Source: Methylotenera sp.
GTDB lineage: Bacteria; Pseudomonadota; Gammaproteobacteria; Burkholderiales; Methylophilaceae
Assembly: GCF_029946165.1 (NCBI RefSeq)
Contig: NZ_JAQSDZ010000026.1
Span: 1-64,000 of the forward strand
Reading direction: 5' to 3'
Length of the DNA: 64,000 nucleotides
Below, in pieces: positions 4,093-58,001 of the stretch. The position numbers were made by a program, and so were the translations under genes. The stretch's first letter is position 1, and every line of letters starts with the position of its first letter. The notes under the pieces were generated by a model. That model saw only the letters and a list, made by a program, of their open reading frames with translations, was not told where the DNA came from and searched no databases.

Positions 4093-5709
4093 ATGTCCTC
4101 ATTGCAAACCTCCAGTAAAATTGCGCTGATTACTGTTTACGAAATCGGCAAGATTCTAAGCTCCTCACTTAACCTCAATAAAACCTTGAGACAGGTGTTG
4201 AATGTGATTGCCAACCATTTAAATATGCAACGTGGAATGGTTTGCGTTCTACAAAATGCAGTAGATCTTGGTATCATTGCCTCCATCGGTTTCACCGAAG
4301 AAGAAACAACTCGAGGTCGATTCGCCATTGGCGAAGGAGTGACAGGGAGGATTTTTCAAACTGGATTTCCCGCAGTTATTCCAAATGTAGCGCATGAGCC
4401 CCTATTTCTGAATCGCACTGGTGCGAAAAGACTAATAAAAGATCAAGCAATTTCATTTTTAGGCGTGCCAATAAAGGTAGGTAGGGAAACCATTGGGGTG
4501 CTTTCGTTTGAGCGCAATGCCGCTGATCATTGGCATGGTTTTGAAGATGATTTACAGCTACTGTCTATGGTGGCAAGTTTAATTGGTCAAACTATCTCAT
4601 TAAATCAGCAGGTTACCAACGACAGGGAACAACTTTTACAAGAAAAATCAAGATTACAAAAAGAATTAGGTGGCAAATACAGTCTTGATAATGTCGTAGG
4701 TCAATCCAAGCGGATGCAAGAGGTATTTGCTGATGTGCATATGGCCGCACCAGGTAAAAGCACAATTTTATTACGTGGTGAGTCTGGCACGGGTAAAGAA
4801 GTTATTGCAAGGTCTATACACTTTCTATCCTCACGCAAGAACAAGCCTTTCATTAAGGTTAACTGCGCAGCGCTCACCGAGAGTCTATTAGAATCGGAGT
4901 TATTTGGACACGAAAAAGGCGCATTTACTGGTGCGACTCAAGACCGTATAGGACGGTTCGAACAGGCACATGGTGGCACCTTATTTTTGGATGAAATTGG
5001 CGACGTATCCCCTGCTTTCCAAGTTAAGTTATTACGTGTTCTACAAGAGCGAGAATTTGAACGTGTGGGCGGAAATAGCACAATTAAAGTAGATGTACGA
5101 TTAATTTGCGCAACCAATCGCAATTTAGAAGAGGCTGTGAATAAGGGGGATTTTCGCTCTGATTTGTACTTTCGCATCAATGTGATATCAATACATTTAC
5201 CGCCCTTACGTGAACGTAAAGATGATATTCCGCTATTGGTTGAAAAAATCATTGCTCGATTTAATCGTGACAATAATGCAAGAGTAGGCATTACGCCAGA
5301 AGCCATGCATGTGCTAAGTAATTGTCACTGGCCTGGCAATGTACGTGAGTTAGAAAACTGTGTTGAACGCTTTGCTACTATGTCCCGTACTAACCTTATT
5401 CGTGAGGTTGATATCCCTTGTCAAACCAATCAATGCTTGTCTTCCACATTGTGGAAATACCAACCTACTGGGGGCGTTATTTCCATTGCTCCAGTCGCAG
5501 CGGCACCATCCCATCTATCAAAGATACCAGAACCAGAATATTCGAATATTGATGATGAGCCACTTTCACAAACCGAGCGTGAACAACTAATCAATGCGAT
5601 GGAAAAAAGTGGTTGGGTGCAGGCTAAAGCGGCTCGCTTACTCAATTTAACTCCCCGTCAAATGGGTTATGCATTAAGAAAATACAATATTGAAGTTAAA
5701 CGGTTTTAG
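4093..5709 (+). CDS. nifA: NifA, sigma-54-dependent nif transcriptional activator
   Basis: A bacterial enhancer-binding protein that activates the nif promoters in this window. Domains: GAF (about 15-165), AAA+ sigma-54 interaction domain with Walker A GESGTGKE (229-236) and GAFTGA loop (276-281), and a C-terminal Fis-type helix-turn-helix. C411, C423, C443 and C448 form the exact C-x11-C-x19-C-x4-C pattern of oxygen-sensitive NifA proteins. The ATG at 4093 (MSSLQTSS) is preferred because a GGA lies about 9 nt upstream and the protein then begins as other NifAs do; an in-frame ATG at 4036 would add 19 residues. No sigma-54 promoter was found upstream, so expression is probably sigma-70 dependent. 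Confidence 0.95.
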   Translation: MSSLQTSSKIALITVYEIGKILSSSLNLNKTLRQVLNVIANHLNMQRGMVCVLQNAVDLGIIASIGFTEEETTRGRFAIGEGVTGRIFQTGFPAVIPNVAHEPLFLNRTGAKRLIKDQAISFLGVPIKVGRETIGVLSFERNAADHWHGFEDDLQLLSMVASLIGQTISLNQQVTNDREQLLQEKSRLQKELGGKYSLDNVVGQSKRMQEVFADVHMAAPGKSTILLRGESGTGKEVIARSIHFLSSRKNKPFIKVNCAALTESLLESELFGHEKGAFTGATQDRIGRFEQAHGGTLFLDEIGDVSPAFQVKLLRVLQEREFERVGGNSTIKVDVRLICATNRNLEEAVNKGDFRSDLYFRINVISIHLPPLRERKDDIPLLVEKIIARFNRDNNARVGITPEAMHVLSNCHWPGNVRELENCVERFATMSRTNLIREVDIPCQTNQCLSSTLWKYQPTGGVISIAPVAAAPSHLSKIPEPEYSNIDDEPLSQTEREQLINAMEKSGWVQAKAARLLNLTPRQMGYALRKYNIEVKRF

Positions 5710-10120: not shown

Positions 10121-10468
10121 ATGATTGCCGCTCACATCCAAACTGAGATTTGCCCGCATCCGAATGAGGTTGATCGTAAACGAATTGAAAAAACCTTGGC
10201 TGAGCGTGAGCGTTATAAATATGTGGCGCCTAAGGTATCGCCAGATATTGAGGGATATCTTGTTCGAAGCCCTTGTTGTTCAAGAAGTGTGGATCCCGAA
10301 GGTGGTGAAATAGATATTGCGCGCATTGAGTATCAATCAGGTGATTTTTGGCGGCTATATCAAAAAGACGATGAACATAATCGTTGGAAACCCCATTCAG
10401 AATACCTAAGCCTCGCTGCCCTACTAGCAAGATTGATTGCAGACCCTAAAAAGGAGTTTTGGCGTTGA
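10121..10468 (+). CDS. DUF3024-like nif-associated protein
   Basis: About 115 residues. The core motifs VRSPCCSRSVDPEGGEIDIA and the following aromatic WRLYQKDDE are what I recall of DUF3024 proteins that sit in nif clusters; no function is known. The CC pair could bind metal or a cluster. The ATG at 10121 has GGTGA 6 nt upstream; a GTG at 10112, immediately after the previous stop, is an alternative. Confidence 0.65.
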   Translation: MIAAHIQTEICPHPNEVDRKRIEKTLAERERYKYVAPKVSPDIEGYLVRSPCCSRSVDPEGGEIDIARIEYQSGDFWRLYQKDDEHNRWKPHSEYLSLAALLARLIADPKKEFWR

Positions 10469-11607
10469 CTAGCTATTATTTCGATAATAACGCCACAACA
10501 CGGGTTTTGCCTGAAGTGTTGGAAGCCATGTTGCCTTGGTTTACTGAGCACTACGGCAACCCTTCAAGTAGTCATCAGTTTGGGCAATTTGCGAAAGAGG
10601 CTTTAATGACAGCGCGGGCGGCAGTGGCTAAGTTTCTGCATGCAAGCCCTGTTGAGATTGTCTTTACCAGTGGCGCAACAGAATCAAACCACATGGCGAT
10701 AATAAGCGCACTCGCTTTGCATCCTAACCGAAGCCGTATTGTAACGAGCGCTGTAGAGCACGCTTCAACATTAAGATTACTAGATGAACTATCAAGAACG
10801 GGCATAGAAGTCATTCAAGTGCCAGTCAACGCAAAAGGCGAATTGAACTTAATAAGACTAAAAGAAGCGGTGAATGAAAATACCGCCTTAGTCACTTTAA
10901 TGCATGCTAATAACGAAACTGGCGTGATATTCCCCATTGCTGAAGTTGCGAGCATCGCTCATGAAAAAGGCGCTTTATTTCACACTGATGCAGCGCAAAC
11001 AGCGGGGAAAATTGCTTTAGATGTCGCACAAATTGCCTGCGACTTTCTTTCGTTCTCAGGTCATAAGCTACACGCACCTATGGGCGTTGGCGTGTTGTAT
11101 GTGAAAAAAGGCTTAACCGCTAAACCTTTACTTTATGGGCATCAAGAACGAAACCGCCGTGGAGGTACAGAAAATATTACGGGCATTATTGGCCTAGGCG
11201 TTGCTTGCCAACTTGCTCAGCAAACCATGAGTAATGCCAATTCTACAATTGCCGCTTTACGAAATGAGCTTGAACAAACTGTGCTTAAAACACTGCCTTT
11301 TGTTAGCGCTAATGGCAGTGAACCACGCGTGCCGAATACAACAAATTTATGTTTTACAGGGCTGCATGGCGAAGAGTTACTCCATAAGCTTAACAAAGCT
11401 GGCGTGATGGCATCACTAGGTAGTGCATGCACTGCTGGCGGCACCGATCCTTCACATGTATTGCTGGCGATGGGACTCAGTCGTGAAGATGCTTTCAGTT
11501 CATTACGGTTATCCCTGTCAAAAGAAACCACAGATAGTGAAGTGAAAATGCTCACTCAAATTATTACCCAGGTTGTAACGGAAATGCGCTCGCCAGTGAA
11601 TGTGTAA
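10465..11607 (+). CDS. nifS: NifS cysteine desulfurase
   Basis: A PLP enzyme that mobilises sulfur from cysteine for nitrogenase Fe-S clusters. 380 residues; visible motifs are NNATT near the N terminus, HTDAAQTAGK, the PLP lysine in SFSGHKLHAP and the catalytic cysteine in SLGSACTAG. The TTG at 10465 is chosen because AAGGAG lies 8 nt upstream and it overlaps the previous stop as TTGA. No nifU accompanies it; the partner scaffold may be IscU from the NifA-controlled isc operon. Confidence 0.95.
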   Translation: MTSYYFDNNATTRVLPEVLEAMLPWFTEHYGNPSSSHQFGQFAKEALMTARAAVAKFLHASPVEIVFTSGATESNHMAIISALALHPNRSRIVTSAVEHASTLRLLDELSRTGIEVIQVPVNAKGELNLIRLKEAVNENTALVTLMHANNETGVIFPIAEVASIAHEKGALFHTDAAQTAGKIALDVAQIACDFLSFSGHKLHAPMGVGVLYVKKGLTAKPLLYGHQERNRRGGTENITGIIGLGVACQLAQQTMSNANSTIAALRNELEQTVLKTLPFVSANGSEPRVPNTTNLCFTGLHGEELLHKLNKAGVMASLGSACTAGGTDPSHVLLAMGLSREDAFSSLRLSLSKETTDSEVKMLTQIITQVVTEMRSPVNV

Positions 11608-47703: not shown

Positions 47704-49053
47704 ATGAAAAAACCATTTGAACCCAAACTAGACTGGTCAGCCTACGATAGCTATGGCGAGGGAGATGCTTATGCGCAGATTCCAGCTAAAGGTGGCGCGT
47801 ATGGCAAGGCAGCCTCTTTATGCATAGGCAGTAGAACTTGCCAACGCACCGATGCAGGTGTGATGTGCCCAAGTTTTAGATTAACAAATAAGGATGCTCA
47901 TTCAACACGACACCGGGCTGCCACACTCAAAGCCGCGTTGAATGGCGAGTTAGGTGAGCACCCATTTATTAGCCCAGACTTGGCTGATGCAATGGAGTTG
48001 TGTGTGGCATGCAAAGGCTGCAAACGCGAATGTCCAAATGGCGTGGATATGGCCATGTTACGCACCGAAGCACTGGCACAACACTGGACTGCAATTGGCA
48101 AGATTCCATTACGCGAACGCTTAACAGCGCATCTACCACGTTTTGCACATCACTTTAAGCATATCAAATGGTTAAGCCGTTTACGTCAGGAGGTTCCGCT
48201 GATTGCAAAATTGTTTGAAAAATACATCGGCATCGCCGCTAAACGTTCATTGCCTAAAGCGGCGCCAAATAGCTTTATGTCGTCAGCGCCATCGACCCAC
48301 ATTGCAGAAAGTGCGCGTGAAGTGGTGCTACTGGTCGATACTTTTTCTAACCACTTTGACCCTGATATTGCCCAAGCCGCGCTGGAAGTACTACAGGCTG
48401 GTGGATATACCGTGCACTTTGCCAGGCCAGCAAAAGGTGAACGTGCGCTATGTTGCGGGCGCACCTATTTTTCTAACGGTATGATCAATGAAGCGCGCGC
48501 CGAGGCTATGCGTTTGGTTAATGCATTATGGCCGTTTGTTCAACGTGGTTTGCCCGTCATTGGCTTAGAGCCATCATGCTTGCTGATGTTACGTGATGAA
48601 TACCTAATGTTGAATCTAGATGAGCGTGTTCCCGTCTTGGCGAAGGCGGCATTGCTACTAGAAGAATTTATTGCACGTGAGCATACGGCAAATCAACTCT
48701 ATATTGAACTAAAACCAATCACCGCCAAAGCTTTAATTCATGGTCATTGCCACCAAAAAGCCTTTGGCGCAATGAAGTCTATGCACAAAGTGTTGAGTTT
48801 AGTACCAGATTTGCAAGTGGAGTTTATCGAATCCAGTTGCTGCGGTATGGCTGGCGCCTTTGGGATGAAAGCGGAGCATTACGAGGCATCGATGCAAATG
48901 GCAGAACTCGCCCTATTGCCACAAATTAGAGCGGCTGGCACAGATAACCTAATCATTGCTAACGGTACCAGTTGCCGCCACCAAATACTGGATGGCGTTG
49001 GACGCCAGCCGCTTCATCTTGCCCAGATATTACGCGCTTCAATTAACGCTTAA
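47704..49053 (+). CDS. (Fe-S)-binding oxidoreductase subunit with two CCG domains
   Basis: 449 residues. Two N-terminal cluster motifs (CIGSRTC-x6-MCPSF near 37-52 and CVACKGCKRECP near 98-109) precede two cysteine-rich CCG domains (ALCCGRTYFSNG with LEPSCLLMLRDE; HGHCHQKAFGA with ESSCCGMAGAFG). This matches the C-terminal part of large FAD-linked D-lactate/D-2-hydroxyacid dehydrogenases (GlpC/HdrD type), but no FAD_binding_4 partner is encoded beside it. It may instead receive electrons from the flavoprotein 11 bp downstream. Confidence 0.85.
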   Translation: MKKPFEPKLDWSAYDSYGEGDAYAQIPAKGGAYGKAASLCIGSRTCQRTDAGVMCPSFRLTNKDAHSTRHRAATLKAALNGELGEHPFISPDLADAMELCVACKGCKRECPNGVDMAMLRTEALAQHWTAIGKIPLRERLTAHLPRFAHHFKHIKWLSRLRQEVPLIAKLFEKYIGIAAKRSLPKAAPNSFMSSAPSTHIAESAREVVLLVDTFSNHFDPDIAQAALEVLQAGGYTVHFARPAKGERALCCGRTYFSNGMINEARAEAMRLVNALWPFVQRGLPVIGLEPSCLLMLRDEYLMLNLDERVPVLAKAALLLEEFIAREHTANQLYIELKPITAKALIHGHCHQKAFGAMKSMHKVLSLVPDLQVEFIESSCCGMAGAFGMKAEHYEASMQMAELALLPQIRAAGTDNLIIANGTSCRHQILDGVGRQPLHLAQILRASINA

Positions 49054-49064
49054 GGAGACAAATA

Positions 49065-50609
49065 ATGTTAGATTCAGTCATTGTTGGTGGTGGTTTGTGC
49101 GGGTTGTCATTAGCTGACCGACTGCATCAATCAGGCCAATCTTTCGCTTTGTTTGAGGCAAGAACAAGGCTTGGCGGTCGCATATTATCGAAACATTGTA
49201 CGATGTCGGACATGACGATTGATCTAGGTCCTACTTGGTTTTGGCCAGATGTTCAGCCAAATATGTTGGCGCTAGTGGAAGCCCTGCAACTCAAACATTT
49301 TCCGCAGCACGATCAAGGTACAGTGCTGACGCTGACTGACCCAAACAGAGACTCAGACAAACAAAATATTGGTGTACATGGCGGTGCTCATCGCGTAGAA
49401 AATGGCATGGGAGCCATCGTCAGCGCGTTAGAAAAGCGCTTGCCGAAAGATAGTATTCATTTAGAACACAAGCTAATTCATATGGAAGACAAAGGTGATC
49501 ATATTTGTCTGCAATTCCAACTAAATGATATGGTGATTAATGTTGAGGCAAAACGTGTGGTTTTAGCACTTCCTCCAAGATTACTAGTAGAGCACGTTAA
49601 CTTTGTCCCAACCTTAGATGAAACATTAGTGCAAACCATGCGTAGCACGCATACTTGGATGGCAGATCAAGCCAAGGCTGTGATGGGTTATTCAAAAGCA
49701 TTTTGGCGTCAAGACGGCCATTCAGGCAATGCATTTGTGAGTCATCCGCAAGCCGTATTATCCGAAGTATTCGATGCCAGTGATGCACATGGTCAGCACG
49801 GCGCCCTTGGCGGCTTATCCGCCATGCCTACAAACTTGCGAGAGTCTTTTCGGCAAGGCATGCCTATGCTGCTGGAAAGTCAGCTAGCGCAATTATTTGG
49901 CATAGAGGCACAAAATGGGGAGTTGCATTATCAAGACTGGGCAAATGAAGTGCATACCTGCTCCACACTTGATCAAACGCCACCGACTAGCCAGCCGATA
50001 TATGGCAGCCGCCATCTGCGTGATTCATACTGGAATACTAAGTTATTTTTTGGTGGCGCAGAAACGGCCTCACATGCTGGGGGATATTTAGAGGGCGCGT
50101 TAGAAGCAGCGACTAGACTAGCTCTCATGTTATCCACAAAGGATTTGTTAAAAACGCTTAACGCGGATAACAATGCCAGTATGAGTCATTTTAGTAGCTG
50201 GTTAACCGCACAACGCAGCCAAGTATTAGCGCGCTATCGCAGCCACTTAAACCGTTACATGACATTGCAATTAAAAGAGCAACTCACGCAACGCGCATTG
50301 CTAGACACGGTAGAGCAGATTTATAGAGAAGCGATTGAGAAACTCAATGCATTACCACTCAATACCAGTGATGTTAGCGTTGATAAAGGCCGCTCAGCGC
50401 TTACACCATTGGTTTTGTCACACTTCAACGGTATTAACCAAGACCTAGTTGAAACGGCCTGGGAGTTCAATCGTAACTCATGTGCGATCTCTAACTTTCC
50501 AGAAGAAAATGCACCTGCAGCAGAATACCAAGAAGCCATACGCCTTGATTTGTTAGTTGCTTGGCGTGAGTTTGCCCTTTCGGTGAACGATACGCTACTT
50601 GCGCGTTAG
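49065..50609 (+). CDS. flavin monoamine-oxidase-like protein
   Basis: 514 residues. Rossmann loop VGGGLCGLSLADRLHQSG, the GG doublet in ARTRLGGRIL, and the C-terminal FAD-contact segment FFGGAETASHAGGYLEGALEA are those of the amine oxidase family. About 150 helical residues after that segment (from about 365) are not part of the usual fold. Substrate unknown. Tight spacing suggests it works with the flanking Fe-S and Rieske proteins. Confidence 0.85.
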   Translation: MLDSVIVGGGLCGLSLADRLHQSGQSFALFEARTRLGGRILSKHCTMSDMTIDLGPTWFWPDVQPNMLALVEALQLKHFPQHDQGTVLTLTDPNRDSDKQNIGVHGGAHRVENGMGAIVSALEKRLPKDSIHLEHKLIHMEDKGDHICLQFQLNDMVINVEAKRVVLALPPRLLVEHVNFVPTLDETLVQTMRSTHTWMADQAKAVMGYSKAFWRQDGHSGNAFVSHPQAVLSEVFDASDAHGQHGALGGLSAMPTNLRESFRQGMPMLLESQLAQLFGIEAQNGELHYQDWANEVHTCSTLDQTPPTSQPIYGSRHLRDSYWNTKLFFGGAETASHAGGYLEGALEAATRLALMLSTKDLLKTLNADNNASMSHFSSWLTAQRSQVLARYRSHLNRYMTLQLKEQLTQRALLDTVEQIYREAIEKLNALPLNTSDVSVDKGRSALTPLVLSHFNGINQDLVETAWEFNRNSCAISNFPEENAPAAEYQEAIRLDLLVAWREFALSVNDTLLAR

Positions 50610-50638
50610 CGCATGAATCATATAGTTAGGAGGTTGCA

Positions 50639-50950
50639 ATGAGCTACATCACCTTATGCAAACACAAAAACATCATGGAAGGCGAGCTTGCAGCCTTTAG
50701 CACAGATGAGGGTGAAGTCATGCTAGTTTGGCCAGATGATGGCGAGTTAAAAGCTTTTCAAGGCACTTGTCCGCATCAAGATGTACCGTTATGGAATACA
50801 TTTAATGGTCGCATCATTACTTGTCAGTTTCATCAATGGGTATTCGATGGCCGCACAGGGAAAGGCTTGAATCCTACTGGCTGTGAATTAAAACAATATC
50901 CTCTGCGGATAGAGGATGGCATGGTACAAGTTGATTTAAACGCAGATTAA
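50639..50950 (+). CDS. Rieske [2Fe-2S] ferredoxin
   Basis: 103 residues with ligands C44-x-H46 (TCPHQD) and C62-x2-H65 (TCQFHQW), the soluble Rieske type used by toluene/alkene monooxygenases (TmoC-like). AGGAGG precedes the ATG. No oxygenase is encoded nearby, so the partner is probably the amine-oxidase-like flavoprotein or the CCG protein. Confidence 0.93.
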   Translation: MSYITLCKHKNIMEGELAAFSTDEGEVMLVWPDDGELKAFQGTCPHQDVPLWNTFNGRIITCQFHQWVFDGRTGKGLNPTGCELKQYPLRIEDGMVQVDLNAD

Positions 50951-51192: not shown

Positions 51193-51546
51193 TTATTCAT
51201 GCTCTCGCGCATGGTTAAGGCTATATCGCGGTAACTCAACGATTAAAGGTGTCTGCCCTACTTTTACTTGGCAAGCCAAACGTGATGTTGGCGTTAATCC
51301 CCACGCTTTATCTAGTTGGTCTTCCTCTTCATCAGAAGCGGCATTGAGTGACTTGTAGCCTTCACGAATAATGATATGGCAAGTACTGCAAGCGCTCACC
51401 CCATCACACGCATGTTCAATTTCAACTCCTGCATTTAGCAATGCATCGCAAAGCACTTTACCAGGCTTAATTTCCAACTCCAAGCCATTTGGACAAGTAT
51501 CAGGATGCGGTAAAACTGTCACTTTGGTGAGGCTAATTTGGCTCAT
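51193..51546 (-). CDS. fdx: isc-type [2Fe-2S] ferredoxin
   Basis: 117 residues, adrenodoxin-like ligands ([13 protein letters not shown] and RLACQVKV). It gives electrons for cluster assembly on IscU. Last gene of the isc operon; its ATG overlaps the hscA stop. Confidence 0.95.
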
Positions 51547-53435
51547 ATATTGATGCTTTCTATTTGCTTACCTGAAAGTGCCTTATGAATCGAAAGATCC
51601 ATACGGCGATTGGCAAAGGTTGTAGTCTCTTCATTTAACGCCGATGTTGCCTCACGTAAGTCTTGAATGCTATTTGCATCACCTAATAAAAGTAATTCCG
51701 CCAACTCATATATTTTTACCCAAACAGCATCCCACTCAGGTTTGCTTAAAAGCTCGTGACCACTTTCAGCCATGGCTATTTCTGTGGCATTAACTAGCTG
51801 ACGCGCTTCAACTTGCGCTTCACGTAGCGCACGCATGTTTTTATCATGGGCTGCGTTAGCTATGCCGGCAGAAAGCATTTGCGTAATTTCAGTATCGGTC
51901 AAACCATAAGAAGGCTTTACTGTAATTTGCGCTTCGTGACCGGTGGTTTGCTCGCGCGCAGAAACGGAAAGCAAACCATCCGCATCCACTTGAAAAGTCA
52001 CGCGTATACGCGCTGCACCAGCAACCATTGCAGGAATCCTACGTAATTCAAACTTAGCTAATGAGCGGCATTCTGCTACCAACTCTCGTTCGCCTTGCAC
52101 CACATGAAAACTCATCGCAGTTTGGCCATCTTTAAAGGTGGTAAAGTCTTGTGCACGTGCTGCTGGAATAGTGACGTTGCGTGGAATAATCTTCTCACTC
52201 AAGCCACCCATTGTTTCAATGCCCAATGAGAGCGGAATAACATCTAGCAGCAGTAATTCATCACCACCGTGATTGCCAGCTAGTGCATTGGCTTGTATGG
52301 CTGCGCCTAGTGCGACGACTTTATCTGGGTCAAGATTAGTTAATGGTTCACGATAAAAAAACTCGCCTACCGCTATTCTTAAATGTGGCATGCGCGTTGC
52401 ACCACCAACCAATACCACGCCTTGAACATCTTCCATTTGCAAATCCGCATCACGCAGTGCACGGCGCACTGGGCTGAATGTTTTACTTAATAATGGCTTG
52501 GTTAAATCAATAAAAGTTTCGCGACTTAAAATGGCGTTGACCGTTGAATTATCAGCCAAAGTACATGAAATCTCAGTCACAGCATCGTCTGTCAAACGCT
52601 CTTTCGCAAGACGAGATTCAGTGAGCAACAAACGCGTATCTTCGTCTGTAATATGGCTTAGTTTAAGTGTGCTCGTTAACCAATCAAAAATCGCACGGTC
52701 AAAATCATCCCCGCCAAGCGCAGAGTCGCCACTGGTTGCCAGTACTTCAAACACACCGCGTGTTAAACGTAATATGGAAAAGTCAAAAGTGCCACCACCC
52801 AAGTCATACACACAGTAAATGCCTTCTGAGGCATTATCTAAGCCGTATGCTATGGCCGCTGCGGTTGGCTCATTAAGCAGTCTTAATACAGATATGCCTG
52901 CTAAGCGTGCTGCATCTTTGGTGGCTTGACGTTGTGCATCATCAAAATAAGCGGGCACCGTAATCACCGCGCCAGATAGCTCGCCGCCAAGGCTTTCTTC
53001 TGCACGCAAACGCAATACTTTTAGAATTTCGGCTGAAACTTCAACTGGGCTTAACTCACCCATCACGGTTTTTAGTTTGACCATGCCTTGAGATTCGGCA
53101 CCAACCGCCTCAACAAATTGATATGGCATGCTGGCAGCATCTGCAATGTCTTCAATGCCACGCCCCATAAAACGCTTTACCGAAACAATCGTGTTATGTG
53201 GATCTTTTGCGGCATTGCTGCGTGCATCCCAGCCTACGTCCACCACGCCATCAGCTTGATAATGTACGACGGAGGGTAATAATGTCCGTCCAGCCTCATC
53301 TGGCAAGGCCACCGCAATGCCACTGCGTACGGATGCAACCAGTGAATGCGTTGTGCCTAAATCTATGCCAACAGCTAAGCGATGTTGATGCGGTGCAGCG
53401 CTTTGACCTGGTTCTGTAATTTGTAAGAGAGCCAT
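51543..53435 (-). CDS. hscA: HscA, Hsp70-type chaperone for Fe-S assembly
   Basis: 630 residues: DnaK-fold ATPase ([41 protein letters not shown]) with peptide-binding domain. It drives cluster transfer from IscU with HscB. Confidence 0.96.
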
Positions 53436-53448
53436 TTATGAATTTATC

Positions 53449-53985
53449 TCAATCACTAATTTTATCGAGTGCTTCGCCAATTTCATGGCGCAATTTTTCA
53501 TAAAAACGTAATTCATTGACGCGTACTTCCGCTGTTGCAAAATCACCCTGCAAATCTAAAACAGCGGCTATTTCATTCACTTGCACGCTAATTTTATGCT
53601 TTAAGCGTTTAGATAGCGCTTCTAACACAGTCACATCTCTACTCTTAACAGCCTCTTCAATCGCTTCGCGCCATTCCATTTGCGACATCAAAAAAGTAGT
53701 AGAAAGCGCTTGGGCAGCTTCAGTTTTACCTGAGAGGTTAATTAAAAACTGCGCACGGCTAGTTGGGTTACGCAAAGTTTGATAGCCATCGTTGATTAAC
53801 GTAGATTGTTGCAAAGCTAATCGTTGTTCAGATTGGGTATGGCTTGCGTGTTTATCTGGATGCGCTTCAGACTGTAGTTGGCGGAAAGAGCGCTCTAAGC
53901 TATTTAAATCAATACTAAAGCGTGGTGCCAAGCCAAACAGTTCAAAATAATTGGGTTGAGTCAACGTTTGCATCACGCTATCCAT
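53449..53985 (-). CDS. hscB: HscB, J-type co-chaperone
   Basis: 178 residues; N-terminal J-domain with the HPD motif (EAHPDKHAS) and a C-terminal helical IscU-binding domain. It is 13 bp upstream of hscA. Confidence 0.95.
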   Translation of the reverse strand: MDSVMQTLTQPNYFELFGLAPRFSIDLNSLERSFRQLQSEAHPDKHASHTQSEQRLALQQSTLINDGYQTLRNPTSRAQFLINLSGKTEAAQALSTTFLMSQMEWREAIEEAVKSRDVTVLEALSKRLKHKISVQVNEIAAVLDLQGDFATAEVRVNELRFYEKLRHEIGEALDKISD

Positions 53986-54045
53986 TTCACTCTAGATTGA
54001 GTTAAAGATTTCACAACATAGTGTTGCGCTAAGGAATGCTTTAAA

Positions 54046-54369
54046 TTAGACACTAAAGCTTTCACCACAACCGCAATTAGCCTTGGCATTTGGGTTGTTG
54101 AATTTAAAGCCTTCATTTAGCCCTTCTTTGGCATAATCTAGCTCAGTACCATCCATGTATGCCAAGCTGGTTGGATCAACCAACACCTTAACCCCATTAC
54201 TTTCAAAAATCATATCTTCAGGTAAAGCTTCATCTACAAACTCTAGGGTATAAGCCATGCCTGAACAGCCTGAAGTTTTAACGCCTAAACGCAAACCAAT
54301 GCCTTTACCGCGGCTGTCCAAAAATTTTTGCACACGGGCTGCTGCCACTGTCGTTAAAGTAACGGCCAT
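54046..54369 (-). CDS. iscA: IscA, A-type Fe-S carrier
   Basis: 107 residues from the ATG with GGAGAAAT upstream; the frame reaches back to 54423 without a good start. Cysteine ligands in [11 protein letters not shown] and [10 protein letters not shown]. Confidence 0.94.
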
Positions 54370-54379
54370 ATTATTTCTC

Positions 54380-54757
54380 CTATACCGAAAATGAACTACC
54401 GCAACCACATGTCGCTGTGGCATTTGGGTTAGTGATTACAAAACGAGATCCTTCCAAACCTTCTTGATAGTCAATCGTCGCGCCCACTAAATATTGATAG
54501 CTCATGGCATCAACAAGCAATGTGACCCCTTCTTTTTCTAGCGCCAAGTCATCTTCTGCCACTTGGTCATCAAAAGCAAAACTGTATTGGAAACCAGAAC
54601 AGCCACCACCCGTTACGTAAACACGTAACTTAAGTGTGGCATCGCCTTCTTCTATAAGCATTTCACTGACTTTGCCAGCAGCGTTTGTAGTGAAAATAAT
54701 CGGTGCAAGCGCTGGGTCAGCAAGCTCGGTTGATTCAATTGTAGCGGTATCAGACAT
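54380..54757 (-). CDS. erpA: ErpA-like A-type Fe-S insertion protein
   Basis: 125 residues; ligands in [12 protein letters not shown] and [10 protein letters not shown], with the ErpA-type N-terminal extension. Having both an ErpA and an IscA inside one isc operon is uncommon; the window thus encodes three A-type carriers in all. Confidence 0.9.
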
Positions 54758-54782
54758 ATCAATACTCCATCAAAATTAAGAT

Positions 54783-55202
54783 TTAAGCAGCAGATTTACA
54801 GGCGTTGTAGCCTTCAGATTCAGTCACATTTTTACTGCGATAATCAGAGATAGCGGCGCGAATAGCGTCCTCTGCCAGCACTGAGCAGTGAATTTTTACT
54901 GGGGGTAAAGCCAGCTCTTCGGCAATATGGGTGTTTTTAATATCTAAAGCTTGATCTAGTGTTTTGCCTTTTAACATTTCAGTCACCAATGAGGACGAGG
55001 CAATCGCAGAGCCGCAGCCATAAGTTTTAAACTTAGCATCTTCAATAAATCCAGCTTCATTCACTTTAATTTGCAATTTCATCACATCGCCACAAGCGGG
55101 CGCGCCGACCATGCCAGTACCAACATCTTGATCTTCTGCATCAAAAGCACCCACATTGCGTGGATTTTCGTAGTGATCTAAAACTTTGTCGCTATATGCC
55201 AT
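54783..55202 (-). CDS. iscU: IscU, Fe-S scaffold
   Basis: 139 residues. Cluster-ligand cysteines in VGAPACGDVMKLQ, KTYGCGSAIASS and PVKIHCSVLAEDA, and the LPPVK motif recognised by HscA is intact. It may stand in for NifU, which is absent. Confidence 0.97.
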   Translation of the reverse strand: MAYSDKVLDHYENPRNVGAFDAEDQDVGTGMVGAPACGDVMKLQIKVNEAGFIEDAKFKTYGCGSAIASSSLVTEMLKGKTLDQALDIKNTHIAEELALPPVKIHCSVLAEDAIRAAISDYRSKNVTESEGYNACKSAA

Positions 55203-55222
55203 TTTGTTCTCCTAATGATGTA

Positions 55223-56470
55223 TTACGCTGCCACTGCTTCAGGGTCGCGATGTGACTCTGTGCCATGTACCCAGCTTACTGAGGCAATATCAATACCTGC
55301 CCTAAACATATCCCATAACGGTGATAGGTCGCGTAACTGCCCTACTTTGGTTTTAATAAGATCGATTGCGTAATCAACATCAGCCTCTGTGGTATAGCGA
55401 CCAATTGAAAAGCGTATGGATGAATGTGCTAGCTCGTCTTCACGACCGATTGCACGAAGCACATAAGATGGCTCTAAGCTCGATGAAGTACAAGCAGAGC
55501 CACTAGAAACCGCGATGCCCTTAACCGCCATCATGAGAGACTCTCCTTCAACGTAGTTAAAACTGACGTTGAGGTTGTGTGGTACGCGTTGATCCAAATC
55601 ACCATTTAGGTAAGCTTCTTCAATACCTGCAAGACCGGCCCAAAGCTTATCGCGCAAGATTCTGATACGAGCGTTTTCTTCTGCCATTTCAGCCTTAGCA
55701 ATACTAAATGCCTCACCCATACCAACTATTTGATGTACCGGTAGCGTACCAGAGCGAAAGCCGCGCTCATGTCCACCGCCATGCATCTGTGCTTCAAGAC
55801 GAATGCGCGGCTTGCGACAAACATACAATGCGCCAATACCTTTAGGACCATAAGTTTTATGAGCAGAAAAACTCATTAAATCAACGGGGAGTTTCTCAAG
55901 ATCAATTTCAACTTTACCAGTAGCCTGTGCAGCGTCCACATGAAAAATAATGCCTTTTTCACGGCAGATATTACCGATGGTGACGATGTCTTGAATAACA
56001 CCAATTTCATTATTCACTAACATGATAGAAACCACGATGGTATCGGGTTGAATGGCGGCTTTAAAAGCCTCTATATCTATAAGACCATTTTCTAATGGTG
56101 AAAGATAAGTGGCTGTAAACCCTTCACGTTCAAGCTCGCGAACGGTGTCTAACACGGCTTTGTGCTCAGTTTTAACAGTAATTAAATGCTTACCATTACC
56201 TGCATAAAAATGCGCAGCACCCTTAATGGCTAAGTTGTTTGATTCTGTCGCACCAGAAGTCCAAACAATCTCTTTAGGATCGCAGTTAACTAAAGCAGCT
56301 ACTTGCTCACGCGCCAAATCGACGGCCGCCTCGGCATCCCAGCCATAAGCATGACTTCGAGATGCAGGGTTACCATAAATCTCAGTCAGGTATGGAATCA
56401 TTTTATTCGCAACACGTACATCGACAGGTGTAGTGGCTGAATAATCAAGATAAATTGGCAAGTTGGACAT
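55223..56470 (-). CDS. iscS: IscS cysteine desulfurase
   Basis: 415 residues. DYSATTPVD start, PLP lysine in [10 protein letters not shown] and catalytic cysteine in [13 protein letters not shown]. The ATG at 56470 has GAGGTG upstream. No iscR precedes it; instead a sigma-54 promoter lies 41 bp upstream. With NifS the window has two desulfurases. Confidence 0.96.
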
Positions 56471-56483
56471 GCGACACACCTCA

Positions 56484-56507
56484 TTAAGAATACTAGTTAA
56501 TTCTTAA
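56484..56507. promoter_or_regulatory. hairpin/dyad at the iscS transcription start
   Basis: TTAAGAAT (56484-56491) and ATTCTTAA (56500-56507) form an 8-bp dyad in the 5' leader, next to the predicted start near 56499. It could be an operator for a repressor or an mRNA hairpin. Confidence 0.5.
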
Positions 56508-56510
56508 TAA

Positions 56511-56525
56511 GCAATCCTCATGCCA
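56511..56525 (-). promoter_or_regulatory. sigma-54 promoter of the isc operon
   Basis: Minus-strand TGGCATGAGGATTGC, -24/-12 boxes with exact spacing. Placed before iscS in the position where an IscR-controlled promoter is usual. Confidence 0.85.
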
Positions 56526-56608
56526 ATGCATAAAATAACACTAACCTATTGATTTTAATTAAACTAATTAAATAGTTGAGAAAATTACAACTCCATCTTT
56601 GTCGTGAT

Positions 56609-56624
56609 TGTCGGGTTACATACA
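56609..56624. promoter_or_regulatory. NifA upstream activator sequence of the isc operon
   Basis: TGT-N10-ACA (TGTCGGGTTACATACA), about 85-100 bp upstream of the iscS -24 element. The IS30 remnant begins some 25 bp beyond it. Confidence 0.8.
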
Positions 56625-56648
56625 CGATGTAGGAAGATGCGGCAACCT

Positions 56649-57360
56649 GGGATTTTGTCAGAGAGAAGTTGCTAGAGGAATGGAGCCCTGAGAAAATCAG
56701 TGGTCAGATTGCCATCAGCCATGAAACGGTTTATCAGCGCATCTATGCTGACAAACGTGCTGGTGGGGGTTGCTCTGGAAAAGATTACGCTGCCAGAAGC
56801 AACGCAGGAAACGTGATGGCAAGTTAGACAGGCGCGGCATCATTCCCAATCGACTATCGATTGATGCTCGCCCTGAAATTGTAGAAACAAGAAGTCGTAT
56901 TGGGGATTGGGAGGCAGATACTATATATTGGCAAGCACCATAAAATGGCAATCGTCAGCTCGGTTGAGCGCAAGACTGGATTGATCCAGAGAGTAACGCG
57001 TAAAACCGCAGACGAAGTAAGTGCTGCGATGGTAGCGTTGATGCGGCCACTCAAGGCGCATGTCACGACGATTACCAGTGACTATGGACGTGAGTTTGCA
57101 GGACATGCCACCGTTGCCACCCAATTGGCCACGAATTTTACTTTGCACACCCTTACGCTTCATGGGAACGTGGTACTGAGAAAACACCAATGGTTTGATT
57201 CGATAATATTTCCCGAAAGACCGGGATTTTAGAACAATTACAGATGAAGAAATTGACACTGCGATGAGAAGATTGAATCACAAGACCTAGAAAAAGGCAT
57301 GGATTTAATTCTCCTCATCAGGTATTTTTAGAACTTACAGGCGTTGCACTTCAAAAGTGA
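56649..57360 (+). pseudogene. decayed IS30-family transposase
   Basis: Stretches of IS30 transposase are readable in different frames: WSPEKISGQIAISHETVYQR, then KRDGKLDRRGIIPNRLSID, GDWEAD, a central VERKTGLIQRVTRKTADE and TITSDYGREFAGH, YFAHPYASWERGT, DFRTITDEEIDTAMRRLNH, and the end SPHQVFLELTGVALQK. At least four frameshifts and two in-frame stops separate them, and the N-terminal DNA-binding third is missing. It is not functional. Confidence 0.92.
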
Positions 57361-58001
57361 ATCCGCCTTATGTAATTTCACTGAGCTAACCTTAATACTA
57401 GGCACAAATTTCATATATATTTACTGCAAGAGTGCTAATTTCCTATTCAGTAGACATTAAAGCCTCTGACTTGCTGAATGGTAGGTTTGAATTAGTATCT
57501 AGAAATCTACAATCTAAATTAATTTTCTTATCTCAAGAATACCTGGCAGCTGCAGGGCGGGCAAAGCTTTATACGTGACCTTTTAATATTTTATTAGAAC
57601 AAATTAACCTTATTTCTGCTGGGGCACCTAATCTTATTAGTGCGAGTTTGTGTTCCTCAAAATAGCCATAAACCCAGAATGAATGTTGGTCTATCAACGC
57701 TAGCTTAGACAAGTTATATCTTAAGATATCCAAAAATTAAAACTTACTTGCCTTGGGCTTGATGTAAATCAAATCCGAAATTATTTTTTTATTTACAGTG
57801 CGAACCTTAAATTTTTTAAGGTTATATTTTTGTTTGACGATTGAGTAGTAAGTGTATGTTTTGATAAATTATTAAATCGGCCATAGCTCAATGTTCTGGT
57901 ACTAATAACTGAAAGCAACAAATGTAAATAAATTAGCCACTCTCTATGTCTAGCGATGCTAAATACAATAGAAAGACTTTATTTGTAAATAATAGGACAT
58001 T
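57361..58001. other. 641-bp AT-rich intergenic region
   Basis: No gene recognised. It contains a perfect 9-bp hairpin (AACCTTAAA/TTTAAGGTT, 57803-57823) followed by a T-rich tract, and probably the promoter of the GGDEF-EAL gene. It may include decayed flank of the IS30 element. Confidence 0.5.

Follow-up and report, generated by a model that had tools for sequence, protein, structure and literature searches.

The window analyzed here, a stretch of 64,000 nucleotides of contig NZ_JAQSDZ010000026.1 from Methylotenera sp. (family Methylophilaceae, order Burkholderiales), carries a nif cluster and a complete seven-gene operon for iron-sulfur (Fe-S) cluster assembly. The operon runs on the minus strand from 56470 to 51193 in the order iscS-iscU-erpA-iscA-hscB-hscA-fdx. 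The intergenic gaps of 10 to 60 bp and the 4-bp overlap of hscA with fdx make a single operon plausible. All seven genes are named by NCBIfam models, each scoring above at least one model's curated cut-off, and the best start of iscS is the ATG at 56470.

55223 to 56470, minus strand: iscS, cysteine desulfurase, nif-linked copy, 415 amino acids (TIGR02006, 710 bits, cut-off 643)
54783 to 55202, minus strand: iscU scaffold, nif-linked copy, 139 amino acids, C-terminal tail with a cysteine (GYNACKSAA) (TIGR01999, 225 bits, cut-off 192)
54380 to 54757, minus strand: erpA-type A carrier separating iscU from iscA, a marker of the nif-linked type of operon (NF010147, 183 bits, cut-off 117)
54046 to 54369, minus strand: iscA (TIGR02011, 178 bits, cut-off 151)
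53449 to 53985, minus strand: hscB co-chaperone, kept in the window copy (TIGR00714, 105 bits, cut-off 47)
51543 to 53435, minus strand: hscA chaperone (TIGR01991, 862 bits, cut-off 709)
51193 to 51546, minus strand: fdx, ISC-type [2Fe-2S] ferredoxin (TIGR02007, 156 bits, cut-off 132)

IscS, IscU, IscA, HscB, HscA, and Fdx are thus encoded together, with the core genes and order of the housekeeping iscR-iscS-iscU-iscA-hscB-hscA-fdx operon and with the ErpA gene placed between iscU and iscA. The ligand and LPPVK (HscA-binding) motifs of IscU are intact, and IscS has the cysteine loop SGSACTS. With 146 bits against the NifU_proper model, whose cut-off is 273, the scaffold is far below the threshold and is therefore IscU-type. 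The usual, though not universal, head of ISC operons is iscR with its promoter, and neither is found in front of this one. Compared with the housekeeping type, operons of the nif-linked type lack iscR, contain erpA, have often lost hscB, and have a nif-type promoter.

The promoter of iscS

Three elements were recognized upstream of iscS.

56511 to 56525, minus strand: sigma-54 -24/-12 element TGGCATGAGGATTGC (motif scan, conservation)
56542 to 56554, minus strand: site resembling that of integration host factor (IHF), AATCAATAGGTTA, between the upstream site and the promoter (exact match to the consensus WATCAANNNNTTR)
56609 to 56624, minus strand: TGT-N10-ACA TGTATGTAACCCGACA, predicted NifA upstream activating site (UAS), 91 bp upstream of the -24 element

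The -24/-12 element has one mismatch to TGGCACG-N4-TTGC and keeps both GG and GC, so that the sequence features of a sigma-54 regulon member are present together with the activator site. Neither motif alone is evidence, since each occurs in the window at chance level: 29 -24/-12 elements with at most two mismatches were found versus 23 expected, and 19 TGT-N10-ACA sites versus 20.4 expected. The joint motif, defined as a -24/-12 element with at most one mismatch and a TGT-N10-ACA 70 to 110 bp upstream, occurs in the 64 kb at only four promoters, those of nifB, nifH, fixA, and iscS. In 60 simulated first-order Markov windows its mean was 0.03 per window and its maximum 1. This confirms, as sequence features, the promoter and activator site that the original prediction, made from the letters of the window, had placed before iscS. 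In an alignment with three relatives, both elements are conserved blocks amid diverged DNA.

The promoter was compared between nif-linked and housekeeping loci in a first set and in 399 genomes drawn evenly from the order, each at least 90% complete (the even draw). A -24/-12 element that retains GG and GC and has no more than two mismatches lies ahead of nif-linked iscS at 34/34 loci of the first set and 14/14 of the even draw, whereas it is found within 400 bp of housekeeping iscS at 0/21 and 0/28 loci, respectively; mononucleotide shuffles contained it in 139 of 4,200 cases. Three loci without the full iscS upstream region (L056, L060, and L118) are excluded from these counts, L253 is left out of the housekeeping counts, and L070 and L086, which are outside the 49 nif-linked rows compared below, are included. 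An exact TGT-N10-ACA lies 70 to 110 bp upstream at 24 of the 48 nif-linked loci, versus 0.8% of shuffles; it is present at 9/9 Methylophilaceae-type loci with upstream sequence (78 to 94 bp; L066 assigned by similarity) and at 13/14 nif-linked loci of the even draw. Matches to the IHF consensus were found at 8/48 nif-linked loci without mismatch (0.25% of shuffles) and at 21/48 with at most one (6.7% of shuffles).

The operon might instead be mainly constitutive or stress-driven and its nif-type promoter incidental, as the chance-level frequency of each motif in the window would allow. The presence of -24/-12 at 48/48 nif-linked loci and the joint motif far above its null argue against this, and the same two results led us to reject a chance promoter. 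Moreover, a simple scan gave no sigma-70-like site on the minus strand between iscS and 57400. Overall, we regard constitutive or stress-driven expression as quite improbable.

When the region up to 2.6 kb before housekeeping iscS was scanned, -24/-12 elements with at most two mismatches appeared at 13/49 loci, in scattered positions. Two related nif-bearing genomes with a single IscU and no NifU (L255 and L266) have a perfect -24/-12 at -416 and -488 before housekeeping iscS; by the map these lie inside the preceding desulfurase gene and may be a coding coincidence. Upstream of the UAS in the window, at 56625 to 57450, is the remnant of an IS30-family transposase (open reading frame 56900 to 57232, plus strand; NF033563, 47 bits, below the cut-off of 80), and the iscS promoter is intact.

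NifU, the second operon, and the nif-linked lineage

Across the genome, PF01592 matches exactly two proteins, both IscU, and PF01106, the C-terminal domain of NifU, has no match, in a search that was positive in 5 of 14 control genomes. The nif-linked operon shares with NIF systems the location among nif genes, which lie in the same cluster in the window and adjoin the operon in relatives, and lacks the scaffold with a C-terminal Nfu domain. With the assembly rated 100% complete over 27 contigs, it is unlikely, though possible, that a nifU escaped notice. The second IscU belongs to a complete housekeeping operon on contig C5, headed by iscR. The absence of nifU that the original prediction had noted for the region is therefore borne out across the assembly, and the genome search it had proposed, for nifU and a second isc or suf operon, returned no nifU and one further isc operon. 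Its observations that iscR is missing from the nif-linked copy and that an ErpA has joined the operon also hold, the latter by the score given above. In the housekeeping operon, a 384-amino-acid NifS/IscS-like cysteine desulfurase is encoded between iscR and iscS (L003, 9958 to 11112), as it is in several relatives.

The usual account has NifU and NifS make the Fe-S clusters of nitrogenase. Yet among the 56 genomes of the even draw with nifH over the cut-off, 17 have NifU-proper (PF01592 and PF01106 in one open frame of about 300 amino acids or more) and 16 have a dedicated ISC operon instead, that is, two IscU-type proteins, no NifU-proper, and a nif-linked operon with erpA in and iscR out; 23 have neither. 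For 14 of these 16, all but the window genome and G014, both IscU copies were compared, and in 14/14 erpA sits between iscU and iscA in just one of the two. Nine of the 14 erpA-bearing copies have another nif gene inside the 10-kb locus and four are on the nifH contig within about 40 kb; the remaining one is L236. No erpA was found in the 29 housekeeping copies of the even draw, nor in the sole copy of the single-IscU genomes (15/15). All 17 NifU carriers have one other IscU operon, which includes iscR and is free of erpA (loci L277 to L293, used only in this check), and therefore 0/56 genomes have both NifU-proper and the nif-linked operon.

Within the family, 7 of 120 genomes encode an ErpA at least 80% identical to that of the window, with a second IscA beside it in at least 6 of the 7, and maps of the loci (L012 to L018) have iscS, iscU, and iscA around ErpA in 7/7. 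Eight of the 120 genomes have nifH over the cut-off, and the second operon is present in seven of these eight and in no other. The eighth, G105 (L271, L272), can serve as a natural control: it has nif genes and a single IscU and lacks both PF01106 and a second ErpA. A wider scan of genome contigs with the ErpA query gave, among the best 80 of 314 matches, nif-linked isc operons in Azoarcus, Aromatoleum, Paraburkholderia, Hydrogenophaga, Pseudacidovorax, Rhodoferax, Polaromonas, and others, many of them divergent from nifA. PF01106 is missing from 39 of 40 genomes picked for nif-linked loci, a sample biased toward the operon and erpA that includes G105 and three genomes with a nif-linked ErpA plus IscA and no second IscU. 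At L064, L078, and L082, in Gallionella- and Nitrosomonadales-type nif clusters, only ErpA and IscA stand beside nifA, and the genome has a single IscU.

The operon was also found on plasmids of Paraburkholderia and of Methylococcus sp. EFPC2, on the latter of which fdx is followed immediately by nifV and a nifW-type gene; public annotation of both plasmids names iscU, erpA, iscA, and hscA. Beyond these two genes on the Methylococcus plasmid, the cluster of nif-linked isc genes also includes grxD and a BolA-family gene (L275, 18962 to 19556). The Methylococcus plasmid and L123, a metagenome-assembled genome (MAG) named as a gammaproteobacterium, place the operon in two gammaproteobacteria and therefore also outside Burkholderiales, where it presumably spread by transfer.

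The content of the two operon types was compared over 49 nif-linked rows, the window included, and 50 housekeeping operons. Single housekeeping ErpA genes (L019 to L041) and the ErpA-only loci were not counted as operons, and L062, L064, L078, L082, and L103 are outside the 49 rows. iscR is present in 0/49 nif-linked versus 49/50 housekeeping loci, the exception being cut by a contig end, and hscB in 12/49 versus 50/50. erpA is present in 49/49 versus 0/50; for 34 of the 49 rows this is by choice, because they were found with an ErpA query, and only the 14 rows of the even draw test it. The IscU tail carries a cysteine in 48/49 nif-linked versus 13/51 housekeeping copies, once the L235 row, whose alignment ran past the stop, is discounted. 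Fdx has one near-diagnostic column, which is weak. Where hscB is missing, hscA is kept (L065 to L133, L226 to L252), and the housekeeping HscB presumably serves both operons.

In a tree of concatenated IscS, IscU, IscA, HscA, and Fdx (rows with at least four of the five proteins), 35 nif-linked and 22 housekeeping rows are split by one branch with support of 98.6. With 49 and 51 rows (at least three of the five proteins), the free search places one nif-linked row, L248, elsewhere, and the tree that constrains all 49 nif-linked copies to one clade has a log-likelihood 31 higher than that of the free search and is not rejected (p-AU 0.764). In a FastTree analysis with the plasmid copies, L239, L243, L248, L249, and the Methylococcus copy fall beside the housekeeping clade with support of 0.65; one origin is therefore favored, not proven. 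No single clade emerged when IscS, IscU, and HscA were each analyzed in a tree of their own.

The original prediction had the nif regulon capture a housekeeping isc operon, and a recent version of this would have the lineage duplicate its own housekeeping operon into the nif cluster. The paralogues are indeed similar, the housekeeping IscU of relatives being about 80% identical to the nif-linked IscU of the window. The window copy, however, groups in the tree with the nif-linked copies of other families, apart from its own housekeeping copy, and a single clade of the 49 copies scores better than the free search. We therefore rejected recent local capture, which is extremely improbable; in place of the predicted capture, we find a paralogue common to diazotrophs of many families, for whose 49 copies a single origin is not rejected. 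As judged from sequence, it is most likely a long-standing isc paralogue that serves nitrogenase specifically and takes the place of NifU.

Proposed role in nitrogenase assembly

It is probable that this second, complete isc operon is switched on together with nitrogenase by NifA and sigma-54 and builds the nitrogenase Fe-S clusters in place of NifU. Two further genes of the window would take part.

4093 to 5709, plus strand: nifA, predicted activator of the isc operon (TIGR01817, 711 bits, cut-off 529)
10459 to 11607, plus strand: NifS-like cysteine desulfurase encoded after nifB, which may be an additional sulfur donor (TIGR03402, 478 bits, below the cut-off of 531)

When fixed nitrogen is short, NifA would bind at 56609 to 56624, IHF would bend the DNA between the UAS and the promoter, and sigma-54 RNA polymerase would start at about 56499. 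IscS, possibly with the NifS-like enzyme behind nifB, would then hand sulfur to IscU, with Fdx supplying electrons and HscB/HscA releasing the cluster. ErpA and IscA would likely make and deliver [4Fe-4S] units to NifH, NifB, and other nif proteins, a task that elsewhere belongs to the Nfu domain of NifU itself. Because the nif-linked copy lacks IscR and the IscR promoter, it would not be subject to the feedback that represses the housekeeping operon.

In the NIF system of Azotobacter vinelandii (NifU/NifS), the Fe-S assembly genes are co-regulated with nitrogenase; by comparison, the window has a stand-alone IscU together with HscBA, Fdx, ErpA, and IscA instead of a multidomain NifU. NifU is described as having a ferredoxin-type and an Nfu domain (PMC8593673). 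According to the deletions reported for Paenibacillus polymyxa, a diazotroph without nifU, its nitrogenase is fed by SUF (PMC8038749); this resembles the window in the use of another Fe-S system and differs in that the system is SufCDB and not a duplicated ISC. Fully active A. vinelandii NifH is reported from Escherichia coli with co-expressed NifM and iscSUA-hscAB-fdx (PMC10746259). This NifH and the Paenibacillus SUF system make it plausible that nitrogenase can be served by ISC proteins.

Pieces of the arrangement are already in print, for Rhodoferax antarcticus and Herbaspirillum. As in the window, nifU is reported missing from the genome of R. antarcticus, and iscU and iscA are in its nitrogen fixation cluster, their significance being left open (PMC5374385); that account, in the text available, concerns one genome and gives no promoter, erpA marker, shared lineage, or comparison with NifU carriers. 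The nif cluster of Herbaspirillum seropedicae is described with hes, fdx, and hsc genes among NifA/sigma-54 operons (PMC3093359), again as in the window; unlike there, its scaffold gene goes by the name nifU. Fosmid DX-1A-14 from acid mine drainage is a partial cluster with hscA and erpA between nifA and nifB, where nifU was reported as not found (PMC3912193); unlike the window, its description, as available, lists neither iscS nor iscU. New here are the recognition of a single operon type that differs consistently from the housekeeping one, its shared promoter, and its exclusion with NifU. No publication on a dedicated nif ISC lineage was found in the open-licence PubMed Central (PMC) literature.

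In the transcriptome of Azoarcus BH72, hesB, an A-type carrier gene, is among the nif-cluster genes with RpoN and NifA sites (PMC3916325). The nif-linked iscS, iscU, and hsc genes are not named in the available text of this study or of the Paraburkholderia phymatum transcriptome (PMC5748707), which thus neither support nor refute induction.

Several observations weigh against the proposed NifA-driven replacement of NifU. Neither expression nor genetic data on the nif-linked isc operon were found in the same literature. An exact UAS at 70 to 110 bp is lacking at 24 of the 48 nif-linked loci and, outside the Methylophilaceae-type loci and the even draw, is present at only 2 of 25, chiefly of Comamonadaceae, Paraburkholderia, and Azoarcus types, where weaker NifA sites, or sites at another position, may be present. 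Of the 49 operons, 37 have no hscB. The exclusion of NifU and the nif-linked operon (P = 0.0009) follows families, so that P overstates independence. Among the 56 nifH-bearing genomes, 15 have one housekeeping IscU (one with an extra 22-residue fragment), no NifU-proper, and no nif-linked operon, and 8 have no full IscU (none, or distant PF01592 matches below 90 bits, two of them beside a PF01106 frame). Given the 15, diazotrophy may not strictly depend on a dedicated scaffold. Unless genes are concealed by gaps in the assemblies, nitrogenase can presumably be supplied by housekeeping systems; a nif-linked copy could have been missed through such gaps in some single-IscU genomes, for example in G534, from family f33, of which seven other sampled members carry it. 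G105 of the Methylophilaceae, too, has nif genes with one IscU and without PF01106. In addition, no residue cleanly separates nif-linked from housekeeping copies in IscS, IscU, IscA, or HscA.

The single-IscU genomes without NifU-proper and the lack of diagnostic residues would also be expected if the NifA-controlled operon only raised total Fe-S capacity during diazotrophy, with either isc operon feeding nitrogenase and no specialised hand-over. This is a real possibility, although not the one we favor: the retention of a separate lineage with erpA added and iscR absent, together with the cysteine tail of IscU, goes beyond the needs of extra dosage. A stronger form of the dedicated role would make the operon a distinct Burkholderiales Fe-S system, in which a specialised route of transfer to NifH and NifB, made up of erpA and the conserved IscU cysteine tail, takes over from the Nfu domain, and for which housekeeping ISC is no substitute during nitrogen fixation; we consider this rather unlikely.

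With the nif-linked operon, the question of what feeds nitrogenase without NifU becomes directly testable, and iscSU-erpA-iscA-hscA-fdx provides a naturally occurring set of parts for transferring nitrogenase to hosts already running ISC. The operon would also explain the paired iscA/erpA duplications that have been reported in Betaproteobacteria (PMC7144353).

The other nif genes identified in the window are nifA, nifB, nifH, and nifZ, and the labels nifDK, nifEN, nifV, and fixABC come from sequence and gene order. An Rfam scan of the window gave no match above gathering scores. Next to the operon, at 47704 to 50950, are genes for an Fe-S dicluster protein, an amine-oxidase-like flavoprotein, and a Rieske protein, two or all three of which are also near the nif-linked isc genes in L054 and L062 (Methylotenera MAGs) and in L123.

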